Source: a virus
Strand: one strand, 5' to 3'
IMG/VR virus record: IMGVR_UViG_3300046463_000543
Span: 1-26,516 of that record
DNA length: 26,516 nt
Below are positions 1,387 through 20,514 of the stretch, piece after piece (positions within the stretch are counted from its first letter, which is position 1; the number at the start of each line of letters is the position of its first letter). A model generated the notes under the pieces. That model searched no databases. It was given only the letters and a program-made list of their open reading frames with translations, and had not been told where the DNA came from. A program made the position numbers and the translations under genes.

Positions 1387-2717
1387 GATTTCCCTCCGCT
1401 TGCTGATTGAGAGGTGGTCAGGGCGGCGTCGATAGCTTCGTGGATCGTCCAGTCGAATTTGTCTGCGCTGTCGATGTCGGTCCGTTCGCCGGTCGGGTCG
1501 ATCAGATACACGCAGCCTGCGCCCTGTTCTAGCGTTATCTCGATCTCCCATCCTTCGGGCAACTCGCCGCACGCGCGTTGCACCGGGTCGGTGTTGTAGA
1601 TCGGGTTCCAGTGACTGCGCGCATCATCGGTTAGCGGTGTCTGTGCTGGCGGGGCCATCAGCGCCACGAGATCGGACGCGCGAGAGGTCGCAGCAGTAAA
1701 TAAGCGCGTGAATTCGTAGTGATGCAATTCGGCAGCGGTGACAATCTCGTCGTCAGATAGATTTCCTTTAATGGCTAGTGCTCGACAGATGCGCGCGCGC
1801 AGTGCCTGCTCGTCTTGAATAGCCGCACCCTGCGCCACATTGGCGGAAGTTGATGCGGCGCGGGCGTCTACAGCGCGCTGAAGCCGTTCCGCAGCCTCGC
1901 ATGTGCCAACAAACACGTCGCCGCCGCCAACGTCGTGTTGGTGCCCGTTCGCCAATACTTCTTTCGCCGCAAGCAGCAACTCGTCCTGCTCGGCAGATTG
2001 CGCGGGCTGTTGCTCGGTTGCATACGCTGCACATGGTCCTTCATGGCCTTTATCACGCGTGCAGTACCATCCTTCTGGCGGCAAGTCGCATTGCGCCTTT
2101 CTCCCGGAGCGTATGAGTCCCGCGCACACCTTCGCGGCGCTCCGAAATAGTGAATTGCGGCTTTGCTCCATGACGTCCTCGCACATAGTCGCATTCAATT
2201 CACGCATCCACGTGCACGCCGCACGCCAAGCCTTTTCCGTAATCGCGTTATTCCAGAAGCCGGAAGTCCTGAACCATGCTTCGAACGCCTGAAGCTCACC
2301 CGTCACTGGCTCTTGCCCCGCCACCTTTTCGGCGGTAAGTGCGGCGCGGCTTATGAAGTCGTAAGCCTCGATTGCCCATGCGTTCAGCCGGTCAACGTCA
2401 TCCGGGCCGTAATTGCTCATGTTCAATTCGATGTAATCGGCCAGCAGCGCTTCCCGCTCCCCAATCGCCACATTTGCGGCGTCCTCACCGCTCAGCGAAG
2501 TGCGGTTGCTTGGCTGGCACACTCGGTAGCCAATTTCGCGTGCGCATGTGCACTGATCTTCGTCGAGGCAGAATCCATGCTGCGCAATCAGGGCCGCGCG
2601 TACGGTTCGCGCCGTCAGATTTTCGCGGGTAACGCCGGGCATCTTCGCCTGGTCGTTCTCGATGTTGCGAATCTGCTCATCGGTGAGCGCGGGCGAAGTG
2701 TGATTTGTCGTGGTCAT
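1383..2717 (-). CDS. Mosaic hypothetical protein with repeated linkers and two Cys clusters, 444 aa
   Basis: The ATG overlaps the upstream stop (ATGA). The protein is built from short blocks separated by low-complexity linkers: it starts TSPALTDEQIRNIEN, has a Cys cluster near residues 50-70 (CLDEDQCTCAREIGYRVC), a second one near 210-230 ending in KGHEGPC (a Cys/His knuckle seen in many phage proteins), then PAQSAEQ, STSANVAQG and APPAQTPLTDDA linkers, and ends TSQSASGGKS. The same linkers, partly identical at DNA level, occur in the gene at 17197-18006. No enzymatic motif is visible. The architecture suggests recombination-driven shuffling of phage accessory modules; function unknown. Confidence 0.7.
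   Translation of the reverse strand: MTTTNHTSPALTDEQIRNIENDQAKMPGVTRENLTARTVRAALIAQHGFCLDEDQCTCAREIGYRVCQPSNRTSLSGEDAANVAIGEREALLADYIELNMSNYGPDDVDRLNAWAIEAYDFISRAALTAEKVAGQEPVTGELQAFEAWFRTSGFWNNAITEKAWRAACTWMRELNATMCEDVMEQSRNSLFRSAAKVCAGLIRSGRKAQCDLPPEGWYCTRDKGHEGPCAAYATEQQPAQSAEQDELLLAAKEVLANGHQHDVGGGDVFVGTCEAAERLQRAVDARAASTSANVAQGAAIQDEQALRARICRALAIKGNLSDDEIVTAAELHHYEFTRLFTAATSRASDLVALMAPPAQTPLTDDARSHWNPIYNTDPVQRACGELPEGWEIEITLEQGAGCVYLIDPTGERTDIDSADKFDWTIHEAIDAALTTSQSASGGKS
1827..1865. repeat. 39-bp exact repeat of 17554-17592
   Basis: Partner of the linker repeat in the gene at 17197-18006; see that entry. A separate 18-bp match, 1638-1655 with 17341-17358, encodes the APPAQT linker in both genes. 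Confidence 0.8.
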
Positions 2718-3685
2718 TTGCTGTCCTTTGCGCGCGCGGCATCGGCCGTGGCTCGAAGAAAGCCGCCGACAGCCAGTTTGAAATCATCGAAGCCGGCGAC
2801 GTCTGCGGTTTTCCACAGTTCGATAGCGACACCATTGATCCATGAAGCCGTCACCGCCTCGTCTGCTTGCTCGGCGGCGCAAGGAAGGGCGTAATGCCGG
2901 TCGATATAGCCTGCGCAGTAGCTTTCCAAGTCTCGCGAGAATCCGTCTTTGGTCGCGTGATCGAACGCCCGAAGTGCAGCCGCCTCGACATCGCACGATG
3001 CCGATTCATCGAATGGCGCGTTGGCGATCGCATTCAGAGCGCATTCGCGCAATTCTTCGAGCGTCGCAACAATCGCATCGGGCTCGTCATCAGGACTATT
3101 GCGGTCGGGAATCTCGCAGACATTGGTGAGGAACGCGTCGAACCAATCCGGCAGTTTTGGCGCGGTCAGCAACGCGATTGCGTTACGCTGGATTTCGGGC
3201 GCAACCGCGGTCATGGGAGCGTCTGCTTGCTCGGCGTCACCGCACGATTGCGCGGGAGCGGCGATATGCGCAATGAAGTGATCGTGACCGACGTTCTCCG
3301 GATCGCATGCACATGCTCGGCGCGGCGTATTGGCGCAACTTACGCCAGCTTTTATCAGGGCCGGTGAGCAATGAAACCATTGGCCTGACTGCGCGGGAGC
3401 GGTGTGCTCCGATATGCAGCTTCGCGTTCCGTACCGGCAAGCGCGGCTTGAGAAGTTGTCGATCTGGCACGCGTCGCGAGTCGATTGCGCGGGAGCGGTG
3501 GGGGTGCACTGAATCGTGAGAAGGTTGGTCAAGATTTGCATGGCGCACATGACCGGATATTCGGCCTCAATCTCCTCTTGAGGCATGTCGTCATCAATCA
3601 TCGGATCGCTATCGCCCAGTGCGGTATCGAGTAGATCGATTGCGCGCTTTAGCAGCCTTGTTACTGCGTCTGTATCGGTATTCAT
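2714..3685 (-). CDS. Mosaic hypothetical protein with three APAQS linkers, 323 aa
   Basis: The ATG at 3685 overlaps the stop of the frame that lies inside dcm (ATGA) and sits 9 nt after the dcm stop, with AGGAA as ribosome-binding site. Residues 1-60 are acidic and helical. Residues about 65-150 are Cys-rich and contain three copies of (T/A)APAQS, encoded by nearly identical 16-18 bp DNA at 3246, 3387 and 3483. Two further repeated segments, AEQADAP and AEQADEA, flank the middle. The C-terminal third ([30 protein letters not shown]) is compact. No family recognised; architecture matches the neighbouring 444-aa mosaic protein. Confidence 0.68.
3246..3500. repeat. Three near-identical copies encoding APAQS
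   Basis: GATTGCGCGGGAGCGG (A/C variants) occurs at about 3246, 3387 and 3483 in one gene and encodes (T/A)APAQS each time; the copies are 141 and 96 bp apart. They mark module borders in the mosaic protein. Confidence 0.7.
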
Positions 3686-4602
3686 GTCGGGTTCCTATTG
3701 TTCGATTGCTTCGCGCGCGGCATGGATGAACTCGGCTGCCGCTTGCGCGTTGATCGCGTTACCGTAGGCGCGCAGTCGTCCCACTCGGGCGGGAGCCCCA
3801 TCAGCCAGCGGGAATGAGCCGGGTCTAACTGGCCGCCACTTTTCGTCCCGGCAGAGCAGCCAGTCAGCAACTCGCCAGAAGCCGCTAGTCGGGCTGGGCC
3901 GTTCAGGCTCAACTGCGCTGCTGTGTGAAGCGCCATGCCGCCCTGACGATTCGCTGAGTTGCCCGGGCCGTTCGTGTCTGTCACTTTCGGTGTCGGCCAA
4001 CTCGCGAATGTCGCTACGTGATTCAGGCTCACCGCCACCTTGCGACCGTCCGGCGTCTTTCCCGTCGCGCTCAATCCCTCGAATGACTGCGATCCCATCG
4101 AGTTGCCGACCGTTTGCGTCGGCCACGATGCCAACCACGCAACCCGGCCCAGCAGAGCGTTCAGTGGCACGTTCGCGCACTCGCTGCCGTCCTTGTGATC
4201 GCGCGTGGTCGGCGTCGGCCACGAAGTACGTTCTGTCGCGGATGTGCGGAGCACCGACGCCCGCAGACGGGAAAGGTGTCGCCCCGCAGGCGTAACCCAA
4301 GGCTTCCAGGTCATCGAAAACAAGGTCGATCCAAGGGTCGACGTCCTTGCTTGCAACCTGCTCGCCAAAGAGGGTTGCAGGTGCGCGCTCCTGGATGAGC
4401 CAGTGCCACGCGGGCCAGAGGTGCCGCTCGTCAGCAAACCCAAGTCCTTTGCCTGCCGCGCTGAAAGGTTGGCACGGACAGGAACCGGTCCAAACAGGTC
4501 GGTCGTCAGGCCAGCCGGCGAGTCGAAGCGCGAACGACCAGACACCGATTCCGGCGAAGAAATGGCACTGGGTGAATCCGCGAAGGTCGTCTGGTCGAAC
4601 AT
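3682..4602 (-). CDS. Overprinted 306-codon frame within dcm (WPTP-repeat protein)
   Basis: This frame lies almost entirely inside the cytosine methyltransferase gene, shifted by one base. Its ATG (4602) has GGAG 8 nt upstream and its TGA overlaps the ATG of the next gene (ATGA), just as for ordinary genes here. The product has three SWPTP/SWPTQ segments (for example [14 protein letters not shown]), a Ser/Arg-rich N-terminal third (FSMTWKPW) and a C-terminal block [19 protein letters not shown] recall similar proteins in phage annotations, also at methyltransferase loci. The WPTP segments fall where the methyltransferase frame reads VADAD or LADTES, so a translation artefact of conserved DNA cannot be excluded. 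Function unknown. Confidence 0.45.
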
Positions 4603-4711
4603 CCTCTATGCTCCGTTCATCAACTTCGCCGGCGGCAATGTGACCGGCGGCTATCAGGTTGCGCAGCCACTGCGCGGCGTATGGGTCGATCTCGTTGTAA
4701 TACGCGGCCAT
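3695..4711 (-). CDS. dcm: DNA cytosine-5 methyltransferase (Dcm family), 338 aa
   Basis: Transfers a methyl group from S-adenosylmethionine to C5 of cytosine in DNA. Visible motifs in order: motif I CHFFAGIG near residue 49, motif [10 protein letters not shown] with the catalytic Cys near residue 79, a motif VI-like LFGEQV (Gln-Val in place of the usual Asn-Val), motif [12 protein letters not shown], and motif [10 protein letters not shown] near the end. The region between VIII and X is the target-recognition part and is rich in ADxD/ADTES segments. The start ATG has GAGGAA 5 nt upstream. An intrinsic terminator lies just upstream. In phages such enzymes usually protect against host restriction; a solitary role without a partner endonuclease is likely here. 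Confidence 0.92.
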
Positions 4712-5948: not shown

Positions 5949-6175
5949 GCTTGCTCCTTATCCTTCGTCGCGTATTCGTTGATCTCGATGGCGTCGAGCG
6001 TCGCATCAGTGTGAGCCTTGGTGAATCCGCTGTAGCTGACCCACTTCCGGTATCTCTCAGCGTCGAGCAGTGCGGCGTTGCGCTCCGCCACCACCTTTTC
6101 ATACTCCGCGTGCATCACGAAGATTCCCGAGTCACAGGGCATTGCGCTTGCGCCGTAGCGTTGTGGTCTGGTCAT
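5945..6175 (-). CDS. Hypothetical coiled-coil protein, 76 aa
   Basis: ATG 6175 overlaps the stop of the HNH gene (ATGA). The sequence has a helix AEYEKVVAERNAALLDAERYRKWVS with heptad character, then FTKAHTDATLDAIEINEYATKDKEQA. Small phage proteins of the form (coiled coil)-ERYRxL-(short tail) are frequent in Burkholderiaceae phages, always without known function. Coupled on both sides to neighbours, which supports translation. Longer readings upstream overlap the HNH gene and are rejected. Confidence 0.68.
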   Translation of the reverse strand: MTRPQRYGASAMPCDSGIFVMHAEYEKVVAERNAALLDAERYRKWVSYSGFTKAHTDATLDAIEINEYATKDKEQA

Positions 6176-6603
6176 ACCGTCTCCATCTGTGGTTGTGTGA
6201 TGCCGGTCTCCCGGCGAGTCTGTTCGAGCAATTGCGCCTCGGTTCCGTATAGGCGCTCCCATTCCTCCTGGCCGGCATGGATTGCGACGCCATAACCACC
6301 GATTCGGTGATGCCGCGGGCAAAGCGGGATCGTGTCGAGATTGCTGCTGCGCTGGCCGCCGCCGGCGAGGTAGCGGACGTGATGCACCTCGGCCGGCGAA
6401 TCGCCATAGCCAAGATTTCGGCACACTACGCAGCAGAGTCCCGCGACGACGCCCATGTGTTCGCGCTCAGCCTTTGTCGCAGCCTTCCGCGCGCGCTTCT
6501 TCATCGGCTTGCGCTCCAGTTCCTTCGTCGCGCTGCGAAAGCTGCTGAACGACGCGCCGGGCTTGCGCTTGAATGCGCTTGACTTCAATGCAGAGCGCTT
6601 CAT
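6172..6603 (-). CDS. HNH nuclease, Ref-like (RecA-dependent nuclease family), 143 aa
   Basis: After a basic N-terminal 45 residues (KRARKAATKAEREHM) come a CVVC zinc pair, AEVHHVRY, then TIPLCPRHHR, a His-Ala-Gly segment and ERLYGTEAQLL. This order matches the P1 Ref family of recombination-enhancing, RecA-stimulated HNH nucleases, where LCxxHHR and the final (F/W)ExxYGxxxxLL helix are typical. It would cut DNA near RecA-like filaments during phage recombination. ATG 6603 overlaps the stop of the HTH gene (ATGA) with GGAG about 10 nt upstream. It sits next to NinB and RusA, a recombination context that fits. Confidence 0.78.
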   Translation of the reverse strand: MKRSALKSSAFKRKPGASFSSFRSATKELERKPMKKRARKAATKAEREHMGVVAGLCCVVCRNLGYGDSPAEVHHVRYLAGGGQRSSNLDTIPLCPRHHRIGGYGVAIHAGQEEWERLYGTEAQLLEQTRRETGITQPQMETV

Positions 6604-6995
6604 CGTGCCGACTCCAGCAATCCGGCGAACGGATGCGCGCGGCCATTGCAAGCACTCCTACGCGCCTTGAATACGCCGGAATATTTGCGGTAGTGACGAG
6701 CCGATGCCTGTTGGCGTGCCTCGGTGCGATCCGGCTCCGGCTTGTCGCGCTTGTCGCCAGCAGCGTAGACGGCGCCCCACAAGCCGCTCTTGCCGACCAT
6801 GCGGTGCCAGTCGCAGATGTAGACCTGCTTCGGCGTCTGAGTGCGCAAGATGCGCAGATGGCGACGCACGCCGGTTTCAGCGATGCCGACGATTGCTTGC
6901 AGCTCGATCGCAGTCATCGGCTCCTGTCCGAGCAGTTCGACAATCTTGCGTCGCGTGTCGTTGCGCACGCTGTTCGGATTGAGCTTGCCGGTCAT
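6600..6995 (-). CDS. Helix-turn-helix DNA-binding protein, 131 aa
   Basis: ATG overlaps the NinB stop (ATGA), with GAGGGA upstream. Residues about 14-55 form an ArsR/MarR-like winged helix: RRKIVELLGQEPMTAIELQ then AIVGIAETGVRRHLRIL, followed by a wing (KQVYICDWHRM). The C-terminal half is basic (DKPEPDRTEARQQASARHYRK) and ends unstructured. Likely binds DNA; target unknown. Placement inside the NinB-HNH cluster suggests it belongs to the recombination block, perhaps as its regulator, which is inference. Confidence 0.7.
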   Translation of the reverse strand: MTGKLNPNSVRNDTRRKIVELLGQEPMTAIELQAIVGIAETGVRRHLRILRTQTPKQVYICDWHRMVGKSGLWGAVYAAGDKRDKPEPDRTEARQQASARHYRKYSGVFKARRSACNGRAHPFAGLLESAR

Positions 6996-7438: not shown

Positions 7439-7812
7439 CACGCCCCCATGACCATGACTTGGCACCGGCCGCCCTTGACAATGTCGCCGCGCGCGACGAA
7501 TAGCTCGTCGATCTGGCTGTCGTCGTCGTAGACGCCAGCATGCGTCAGCGCATCGAGCGCGGCCTTGACGCGGTTGTCAATGTCGGCCACGCGTCGATCT
7601 CGCATGCTGACGTGCATCGCCACGCACAGGCGCGCATCGCCGAACTTGATGGCTTGGCGCTCGGCAACGATCTCGGCGACGCGCTGGCGGAAGTCCTTTC
7701 CCTCGCGGGTTATATACATGCCCCGCGGCGACTTCCTCCAATATGAATTGATCGACGGCGGAAGGGGGAGCGTTAGAAACTGTGCAACGCCGGATAATGG
7801 ATGGTCTGTCAT
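7438..7812 (-). CDS. rusA: RusA-family Holliday junction resolvase, 124 aa
   Basis: RusA dimers cut four-way DNA junctions. The N-terminal LTLPLPPSINSYWR and the central block RVADIDNRVKAALDALTHAG followed by VYDDDSQIDEL match the family; the catalytic Asp residues are the two in DIDN and one in DDSQ. The C-terminal strand FVARGDIVKGGRCQVMV completes the fold. ATG 7812 overlaps the stop of the TGT-like gene (ATGA) with GGAGG upstream. Lies next to NinB and the Ref-like nuclease, forming a recombination cluster. Confidence 0.92.
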   Translation of the reverse strand: MTDHPLSGVAQFLTLPLPPSINSYWRKSPRGMYITREGKDFRQRVAEIVAERQAIKFGDARLCVAMHVSMRDRRVADIDNRVKAALDALTHAGVYDDDSQIDELFVARGDIVKGGRCQVMVMGA

Positions 7813-8567
7813 GCTGCCTCCAGGGCAAAACCTGTTTGAACCGGCGCCAGTTCTCGTATCCAAAATGTCGGCGACTGATGAGCTTCGATCCGGTCTCGCA
7901 TAACTTGAGCGCGAGATTCCTTGGTCGCTGGTGTGTAAGGTCCGCGCCACTTGCTATCGATGCCGATGTTCTGGCCGATGTTTGTGCTATCTGCGCTGGC
8001 GAACGGAAAGCGCGTGAATACGTCAGGGTCAAGCATGCGGAGACCATGAATCTTGCAAATTGGCCTGCCGCTCTTGTCGCATAGAACATCCATGGCTTCG
8101 GCCATGCGGACATACCAGGCTTGTGATCCCACCGAAGCAAATTCGCCGGAACTGCCTAAACAGATGCGCGGCCATGCGGACGCTAGGCGATCGAGTCGGT
8201 CGAGACTCTCGTGCAAGTGCCATACAGGGGCGCCTATCCACGGCGCGCGCTCGCGCCACGGCCATTCGGCCAGCAGGGCATCGTTTGCTGCTTCATCGCC
8301 ATCAATTACGTCAGGGATGACAGCAAAGTCGAAAGATGGATAGCGATGCAGTTCTGCAACCCATTCATAGAATGGTCGCCAGTCAGTCACTGGATTCCCG
8401 CTGCGCCATGCACTGAAAGCACCGTTGTCGACCGCGAACGTCTGAGCAACATCAATTGCAAGGCCAAGCTGCTCAGGGTGCCGGAAAGAAACAAACGCGT
8501 GACCGCCTGAATAAACTCGCACGGCGGCCGTTGCGGGCGTAATAGGGGAGCCGTGGTAGTGAATCAT
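7809..8567 (-). CDS. TGT/DpdA-like TIM-barrel protein (possible DNA or RNA transglycosylase), 252 aa
   Basis: ATG 8567 overlaps the XRE gene's stop (ATGA). The order of conserved blocks resembles tRNA-guanine transglycosylases: FAVDNGAFSAW in the position of the TGT DSGGFQ block, FAVIPDVIDG like the second Asp block, VWHLHESLDRLDRL like the substrate Gln block, ICLGSSGEFA like AIGGLA, IHGLRMLDPDVF like the MGVGT block, and FASADSTNIGQN where TGT has DxxDCxxPTRNGR. In phages the TGT-related DpdA proteins insert 7-deazaguanines in DNA. No queuosine or preQ0 synthesis gene is nearby, so host precursor would be needed. Assignment is from motif order only. Confidence 0.55.
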   Translation of the reverse strand: MIHYHGSPITPATAAVRVYSGGHAFVSFRHPEQLGLAIDVAQTFAVDNGAFSAWRSGNPVTDWRPFYEWVAELHRYPSFDFAVIPDVIDGDEAANDALLAEWPWRERAPWIGAPVWHLHESLDRLDRLASAWPRICLGSSGEFASVGSQAWYVRMAEAMDVLCDKSGRPICKIHGLRMLDPDVFTRFPFASADSTNIGQNIGIDSKWRGPYTPATKESRAQVMRDRIEAHQSPTFWIRELAPVQTGFALEAA

Positions 8568-8806
8568 GCTCGGCCCCGCTGCACGTAAGGGTTGCACTCG
8601 TGCTCAGTGAGTCCAGCGATGTAATCAAGGCTGACGCCAAAGACGCGCGCTAAATCGGCTGCCATAGTGAGGCCGGGAGCGTGCTCGCTCCGCTCAACCT
8701 GACCGATGTAGCTGGCATGCATGCAAATGCGCTCGCTAACCGTTGCCAACGTCATGCCGCGCTCTTTTCGAATGCGCCGGATACGCTCACCAATGGCCTC
8801 ATTCAT
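8564..8806 (-). CDS. XRE-family helix-turn-helix regulator, 80 aa
   Basis: Residues 3-62 form a typical XRE/Cro-CI HTH: IGERIRRIRKERGMTLATVSERI, then the recognition helix region MHASYIGQVERSEHAPGL and TMAADLARVFGVSLDYIAG. It is a minimal one-domain protein with an 18-residue tail. ATG 8806 overlaps the preceding stop by 8 nt; the frame is open further upstream, but that part overlaps the previous gene. It may regulate part of the early region or a host gene; no operator can be assigned. Confidence 0.82.
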   Translation of the reverse strand: MNEAIGERIRRIRKERGMTLATVSERICMHASYIGQVERSEHAPGLTMAADLARVFGVSLDYIAGLTEHECNPYVQRGRA

Positions 8807-19507: not shown

Positions 19508-20514
19508 GCTGCTTTCCTCTGTCGGTGTGCGCCTTCTCTGGCGCGTAAGTAGGTTTCCTGCCGGATGAGCCAGTCAAATCCGCAAGCGTCGAATGGTTCC
19601 ATGTTGCCAGCGCAGTACTCGAAATACTTGCGGGCCATGTCCGGTATGTCGCGGAACCCAAGAAATTCGCGGATTGCAGTAGCGCGCGGTGCGCTGTACG
19701 GCTCGGCAACAGCCCGCGGCCACTCAGGCCCCATCAGGTCGTTGTAAAGCTCGATCACTTCCAACTCCTTCGCGTCGTATTCCGTCTTGCCAGCAGAATC
19801 CAGCCAGCCCTCAGCATTGATCCACGAAGCCGGCAGAGGGATGAACTGACCGTCGTCTCGCTTCCAGTCGCTGCGGGTCGTCATCGCCAGGTTCACGGCG
19901 TCGATCATGGTCTGCACGAGAGCGTCGTCCGGGTTCAGTTTTTCAAACGCTTTCAGAGCCGCTTTCCTGTTCCGCTTTTTCGGGTATGCAGCGTAGAAGC
20001 GGTCGAAACGTTCGTGCTGCACGGCAGTGCTGCACATGTCTTTTGGAGTTGTCTTTTGATTGTCTTTAAAACCTTTCTTTTGTGGTTGCTGATTCGGTAA
20101 CCCCGAAATGACCAATTCGGTAACCCCTTCGTGACCGTTTTGGTAACCCCCCGTTACCACTTCGGTAACCGGTTGCTCTTTCGGTAACCGGGTTACTGAT
20201 TCGGTAACCCCCCATTGCTTGTGGTTCTTGTTCAGGCCGAGTTCTTTGGCGTGGTGTCCGTCCGTTCGCACAAGGATTTTCATCTCGACCAGTTCGGTGA
20301 CGGTGCGGCTGCAATGCGGCTTGGCGATGCCAGTCATCGCGCTAAGTTGGGACAGTCCAATCTCGTCGGATTTTTTGTTAAATCCATACGTCTTGCGGAC
20401 TACGGCCATCACAATGGCCCATTGGCGCGAAGAAAGTCCCGCCCGCAACAGAGCGTCCAGAAGCTCATTGGCGAGCCTGGTGTAGCCGTTTTCGAGTTGC
20501 GGGTTCGCGACCAT
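19504..20514 (-). CDS. Phage replication initiator, lambda O-like, 336 aa
   Basis: The N-terminus fits the Phage_rep_O winged helix: GYTRLANELLDALLRAGLSS, RQWAIVMAVVRKTYGFNKKS, QLSAMTGIAKPHCSRTVTEL. This domain binds origin iterons. The middle (residues about 100-140) is the translated iteron array, giving repeated VTE segments (GVTESVTRLP, PVTEVVTGG, GVTELVI). The C-terminal half, with FDRFYAAYPKKRNRKAALKA, is common in phage initiators and presumably contacts DnaB. ATG 20514 shares its A with the upstream TGA. The origin lies inside the coding sequence, as in lambda. Confidence 0.88.
   Translation of the reverse strand: MVANPQLENGYTRLANELLDALLRAGLSSRQWAIVMAVVRKTYGFNKKSDEIGLSQLSAMTGIAKPHCSRTVTELVEMKILVRTDGHHAKELGLNKNHKQWGVTESVTRLPKEQPVTEVVTGGYQNGHEGVTELVISGLPNQQPQKKGFKDNQKTTPKDMCSTAVQHERFDRFYAAYPKKRNRKAALKAFEKLNPDDALVQTMIDAVNLAMTTRSDWKRDDGQFIPLPASWINAEGWLDSAGKTEYDAKELEVIELYNDLMGPEWPRAVAEPYSAPRATAIREFLGFRDIPDMARKYFEYCAGNMEPFDACGFDWLIRQETYLRAREGAHRQRKAA
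20041..20209. other. ori: Putative replication origin: iterons plus AT-rich stretch
   Basis: TTCGGTAACC occurs at 20093, 20116, 20161, 20180 and 20200 and as TTTGGTAACC at 20139, with spacings of 23, 23, 22, 19 and 20 bp; inverted GGTAAC pieces lie at about 20152 and 20190. Next to the array, 20041-20090 is AT-rich (TTTTGATTGTCTTTAAAAC). The arrangement, iterons then AT-rich DNA inside the O-like gene, is that of lambda ori. Confidence 0.85.

Follow-up and report, generated by a model that had tools for sequence, protein, structure and literature searches.

A single locus of the window (the whole analysed stretch of 26,516 nt, a viral contig) very probably codes for an M.EcoHK31I-type DNA (cytosine-5) methyltransferase made up of two subunits, both of which would derive from one stretch of DNA with the second being translated separately. 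The first chain, alpha (dcm, 3695..4711, minus strand, 338 aa), is the catalytic chain of a C5-cytosine methyltransferase and carries motifs I-VIII and X without motif IX. The second, beta (3682..4602, minus strand, 306 aa, ATG start), is a nested gene in the +1 frame relative to alpha and probably represents the small-domain subunit. The overlap covers nearly all of beta. Pattern searches and alignments show that motif IX is absent from alpha, that a likely equivalent lies in beta and that the same block is found in the alpha frame of actinophage relatives.

The phage genes of the window comprise terminase subunits, a DnaB-like helicase, a replication initiation protein, a Sak4-like annealing protein, NinB and RusA. 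On the minus strand, 6172-6651 belongs by its PF16786 match (E 3.6e-11) to the Ref-like family of RecA-dependent nucleases. Inside the replication initiation gene, at 20092-20209, two short repeat arrays (TTCGGTAACC...) lie side by side, with periods of 23 and 20. Lambda O-type origins have repeat arrays within the replication initiation gene, and the arrays seen here are possible origin iterons. A gene at 7809-8597 (minus strand) matches phrog_887, 'queuine tRNA-ribosyltransferase' (E 3e-72), with no Pfam match. It could be a DpdA-like 7-deazaguanine DNA modification gene, in which case DNA modification by the phage may extend from C to G.

Layout and conservation of the nested frame

The first-pass annotation had described a 306-codon frame inside dcm in a different phase, and the ORF at 3682-4602 (minus strand) is indeed present. 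Its further details are correct as well. A Shine-Dalgarno sequence, GGAG, is found 8 nt ahead of the beta ATG (4603..4622, minus strand; upstream sequence AACGGAGCATAGAGG-ATG) within the alpha R-S-I-E codons. The stop codon TGA of beta (3684-3682) shares bases with the ATG (3685-3683) of the downstream gene (2714-3685), forming an ATGA overlap which may couple this gene to beta as well, and alpha stops 9 nt short of the same ATG. The locus was also said to be, if translated, one of the longest dual-coding phage loci, but it is not special in this respect as the beta ORFs of relatives reach about 380-450 codons.

Using alpha as sole query, 80 viral loci (L082-L161) were collected. A beta match in the same phase is found in 80/80 of them, with an open frame of 235-471 codons. 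In the non-redundant subset the +1 frame is free of stops in 40/41 loci, where 2.15 would be expected if the synonymous codons of alpha are shuffled. The +2 frame is open in 0/41 and has 13 stops on average. Stops in the alternative frame among dcm homologues, which had been named as an observation that would refute dual coding, are hence not what these loci exhibit.

Searches with beta as query gave relatives encoded in 443 viral stretches as well as in 55 genome loci, besides matches to 202 phage records. Phages of Proteobacteria, Paenibacillus and Mycobacterium share the alpha/beta layout. A search for relatives outside phages in 296 Enterobacterales genomes gave matches in 3 genomes. Loci with a broken frame (L164, L171, L173, L180, L204, L209 and L212) are mostly damaged or rearranged. 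In L171 (Consotaella salsifontis) alpha is stopped at about codon 210 and beta is intact with 383 codons. Two others stem from Rhodobacterales-type contigs: L204 shows a deletion or rearrangement in alpha by which the N-terminal part of alpha continues into the beta frame as one ORF, and in L212 alpha is rearranged with its two halves on opposite strands. Judged by its recurrence among relatives, beta is a conserved gene and no chance ORF.

As a rule public records annotate only a single protein of the pair, at times the wrong one. In Pseudomonas phage PMG1 (NC_016765.1 36867-37628, L219) the beta frame is annotated as 'DNA methyltransferase', similar to an 'Mte8-like' protein, and alpha is unannotated.

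Selection on both frames and start signals of beta

Since beta is read in +1, the first base of an alpha codon serves as the wobble base of beta. In 60 disjoint locus pairs, differences at alpha positions 1:2:3 number 128:92:526 over the first 35 codons, which do not overlap beta, and 2769:1770:2793 inside the overlap. According to a sliding map, third-position changes dominate in alpha codons 1-80, indicating that alpha rules there. Changes at third positions are suppressed in codons 81-160 and 281-320, where second positions change least, pointing to a rule of both frames. In codons 161-280, corresponding to the WPTP region of beta, first-position changes are highest with positions 2 and 3 being about equal, as would be the case if beta rules. 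We know of no RNA-level constraint that would yield an excess of first-position changes.

A shuffle test was performed on 72 distant disjoint pairs, in which alpha codons were shuffled such that alpha is preserved and the resulting beta identity was compared with the real one. Presuming near-saturated synonymous sites, an assumption of which the codon-position test is free, beta identity is above expectation in 72/72 pairs for alpha codons 81-160 (0.564 vs 0.324 shuffled), 161-280 (0.358 vs 0.198) and 281-320 (0.696 vs 0.371). The effect is small in codons 37-80 (0.395 vs 0.333, 55/72 pairs). After a shuffle preserving beta, alpha identity in codons 161-280 is only slightly above the shuffled value (0.259 vs 0.201). 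Read from these substitution patterns, the beta frame is shown to be under protein-level selection across most of its length.

The first-pass annotation had stated that the two proteins constrain each other. True dual coding is supported and the constraint is mutual, but it is not symmetric: the WPTP region conserves the beta frame while alpha largely follows. A substitution pattern explicable by dcm alone, likewise named beforehand as refuting dual coding, is seen neither in the position counts nor in the codon shuffles.

The same data bear on the view that the +1 frame is a by-product without a gene, kept open through G+C-rich codon use and alpha conservation. A G+C content of 59% in the window and the weak extra conservation of beta over alpha codons 37-80 are compatible with it. 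However, an open frame in nearly all non-redundant loci against about two expected, the concentration of changes at the wobble position of beta, the recurrence of the layout in Paenibacillus phages and two alpha residues (304 and 307) which vary under a constant beta residue all speak for a gene. The substitution pattern refutes a by-product as far as sequence can show, and we consider its probability to be close to nil.

In most loci the beta ATG follows the start of alpha by about 109 nt. At this position it is not conserved in distant Rhodobacter-type loci, and the end positions of beta and alpha vary among relatives. In front of the ATG, the Arg-Ser codons of alpha spell GGAG in 56/91 non-redundant loci, where 14.5% would be expected (p 8e-25), and AGGAG in 33/91 (3% expected). 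The ATG is created by an alpha Asp codon, for which GAT is used in 83/99 loci vs 35% elsewhere (p 3e-23). Both p-values assume independent loci and are indicative only. By this codon usage the start signals of beta are shown to be conserved. Conservation of both ATG and Shine-Dalgarno sequence supports an independent initiation of beta.

A programmed +1 frameshift that fuses the N-terminal part of alpha to the beta frame would be an alternative to separate initiation. It would place motifs I-VIII and IX in one chain; no specific tool result stands behind it. The constraint on beta sets in near alpha codon 81, far ahead of motif VIII, and would be left unexplained by a shift at that motif. Moreover the start codon at +109 and its Shine-Dalgarno sequence are conserved far above codon expectation, and a second shift would be needed as motif X lies in the alpha frame. 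We thus regard a frameshift as very improbable and favour a separate start of beta.

Catalytic motifs in alpha and a likely motif IX block in beta

Motifs I (4526..4567), IV with the catalytic Cys (PCQ, 4445..4486), VI (TLFGEQVAS with the Glu of ENV kept, 4349..4375), VIII (RxR, 4217..4261) and X (3725..3781, GN invariant in the alignment) are located on the minus strand in the alpha frame. As invariant motif columns they identify alpha as a DNA (cytosine-5) methyltransferase. The Pfam family PF00145 matches residues 74-166 only (profile positions 65-161 of 324, E 1e-11) and the alpha profile aligns with M.HhaI residues 71-178 only, while phrog_363 matches over 1-336. The AF2 model of alpha is confident for most of residues 1-167 and for the C-terminal helix 322-337, and its best folds in the PDB are M.HhaI and M.HaeIII. 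Residues 172-317 have a pLDDT mostly below 50 and do not form an ordered small domain in the model. The motif IX pattern is found in 0/153 alpha proteins, while 7/7 canonical enzymes are positive, and in 153/153 beta proteins.

Beta contains a conserved block at 4240..4332 (minus strand) with nearly invariant columns, a predicted beta-hairpin opposite motifs VI-VIII of alpha. It is the best-scored part of the AF2 model of beta, and both frames are constrained there. Three WPTP repeats follow on the same strand, which had been reported to fall opposite ADAD and ADTES of alpha. This is correct: repeat 1 (4186..4224) lies opposite ADAD with the beta frame dominating, repeat 2 (4102..4128, SWPTQTVGN, thus WPTQ) opposite ADAN, and repeat 3 (3976..4002, SWPTPKVTD) opposite ADTES.

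The putative motif IX block of beta is located at 3769..3834 (minus strand) and was assigned by a pattern match and by alignment to single-chain relatives. The first-pass annotation had noted a conserved-looking block; it is conserved, but it had not been identified as motif IX of C5-methyltransferases. In this region alpha Gly311 is GGA in 97/101 loci vs 12% elsewhere, and Arg309 is CGA or AGA in 93/101 vs 16% elsewhere. At alpha residues 304 (H/D/N/Y) and 307 (P/A/T/S) the amino acid changes among loci whereas beta keeps Leu. By this codon choice and these variable alpha residues, beta dictates the DNA at the motif IX block. A direct profile comparison of beta with the canonical motif IX gives the right register but is not significant (E 0.05-0.13). 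The beta block is nevertheless likely the equivalent of motif IX, based on single-chain intermediates and pattern matches.

The frame of this block was followed across phage families. It lies in +1 in 78 window-type loci, in 63/65 Tadhana-type loci where it was found (Paenibacillus phage query) and in 15/15 such Rhynn-type loci (Mycobacterium phage query). In JKSyngboy-type loci (Gordonia phage query) it is located in the alpha frame, in 25 loci or, with a looser pattern, in 66/80. Across these four types it never occurs in +2. The beta profile matches Tadhana- and Rhynn-type betas over 226 columns (probability 99.8, E 4.6e-30). Against the in-frame block of the single-chain family the beta profile reaches E 1.9e-5, and the Tadhana/Rhynn betas 5.5e-9. 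The single-chain JKSyngboy enzyme matches the alpha family phrog_363 over 1-353 and the beta family phrog_1008 over its last 107 residues (247-353, E 1.3e-32); beta itself matches phrog_1008 with E 2.3e-35. In JKSyngboy-type loci (L263-L342) the change over alpha codons 160-279 is biased to first positions, and phrog_1008 also matches in +1 (record MT723937.1 2709-3326). By these matches and substitutions a WPTP-type +1 frame is conserved there without motif IX.

Beta might instead be a translated overprinted protein without being a methyltransferase subunit, e.g. an independent DNA-binding or anti-restriction factor. It has no match in Pfam or NCBIfam, and its WPTP part is conserved in +1 even in the JKSyngboy-type loci with their motif IX in the alpha frame, which would fit such a protein. 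On the other hand, beta carries the motif missing from alpha in all proteins inspected, the block belongs to the methyltransferase chain in single-chain relatives, and no ordered small domain is predicted in alpha itself. We hence rate an independent protein as unlikely. Given that its conserved block is the likely motif IX, beta most likely supplies what the methyltransferase chain lacks, as the second chain of M.EcoHK31I does, and would not be an unrelated overprinted protein.

Structure prediction for beta alone is poor (AF2, pLDDT 60, pTM 0.26), which might be expected of an obligate partner. A fold search with this model gave no match, although the low confidence of the model makes the search meaningless. 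The beta profile matched no PDB sequence, and a search with the single beta sequence likewise gave no match.

For the two-subunit enzyme the following scheme is proposed. Alpha would provide the large domain with cofactor and catalytic motifs I-VIII and a C-terminal helix with motif X. Beta would be translated in +1 from its own Shine-Dalgarno sequence and ATG inside alpha, i.e. by internal initiation on one mRNA, and would supply the small domain with motif IX and presumably a target-recognition domain around the WPTP repeats. Both chains may assemble after translation into one active enzyme, which would methylate phage DNA and probably evade host restriction, a role suggested by the usual one of phage methyltransferases. 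We infer translation of beta in vivo, assembly with alpha, specificity via beta and the biological role from the locus as described. If the scheme holds, alpha cloned alone would yield an inactive enzyme.

More tentatively, and with less than even confidence, the WPTP modules of beta may form the target-recognition domain with the matching alpha stretch being little more than a linker, and the same may apply to the actinophage +1 frame. Specificity could then change in one frame at little cost to the other. In actinophages, whose motif IX lies in the alpha frame, recognition would still depend on a domain supplied in +1; such a division would not have been described previously.

To our knowledge, few long same-strand overlaps have been documented in bacteria and phages for which selection on both proteins is clear. 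Here hundreds of loci, spread over several host phyla and showing how the two frames divide the work, make ideas on overprinting directly testable.

Comparison with known two-subunit methyltransferases

Lee, Kam and Shaw are said to have described in 1995 that the second gene of M.EcoHK31I begins inside the first one, in another frame. The nesting of beta in +1 within the alpha gene resembles this arrangement. Two-subunit enzymes of this kind are already known, while their spread across phages appears to be undescribed in the literature searched: open-licence papers yielded none on a phage-wide pattern or on dual-coding phage methyltransferases.

In known C5-methyltransferases, motifs I-VIII and X make up a large catalytic domain, and a small domain holds motif IX and the region for target recognition (PMC3404938). 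M.AquI (CYCGRG) is a two-chain enzyme with catalytic motifs on one chain and motif IX together with X on the small chain (PMC3404938). The locus of the window shares with it the split of a C5-methyltransferase over two chains with the catalytic motifs apart from motif IX. In contrast to M.AquI, alpha retains motif X, and almost the whole of beta lies within the overlap of the two genes. The M.AquI type was ruled out on the grounds that motif X stays in alpha.

M.EcoHK31I (YGGCCR) is composed of alpha and beta, and in the passages of PMC3404938 that deal with it the large chain carries motifs I-VIII and X and the second, smaller chain motif IX alone. The locus of the window shows the same distribution. 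According to the same passages M.EcoHK31I is part of a restriction-modification system and its target-recognition domain is predicted in the large chain (PMC3404938). The locus of the window differs in belonging to a phage, and no gene for a restriction enzyme was seen in its neighbourhood. Furthermore its expected target-recognition region is conserved in the beta frame and not in alpha, although such domains are variable by nature.

Single-chain phage C5-methyltransferases of the Gordonia phage JKSyngboy type share with the window the catalytic family, an LSPxFVEWMMGLPxGW block and motif X. Unlike the window they have motif IX in the alpha frame and keep a WPTP-like +1 frame without it. Paenibacillus phage Tadhana gp54/gp55, both annotated as DNA methyltransferase, exhibit the same alpha/beta overlap as the window at about 43% identity in the core of alpha, with a shorter beta of 234 aa.
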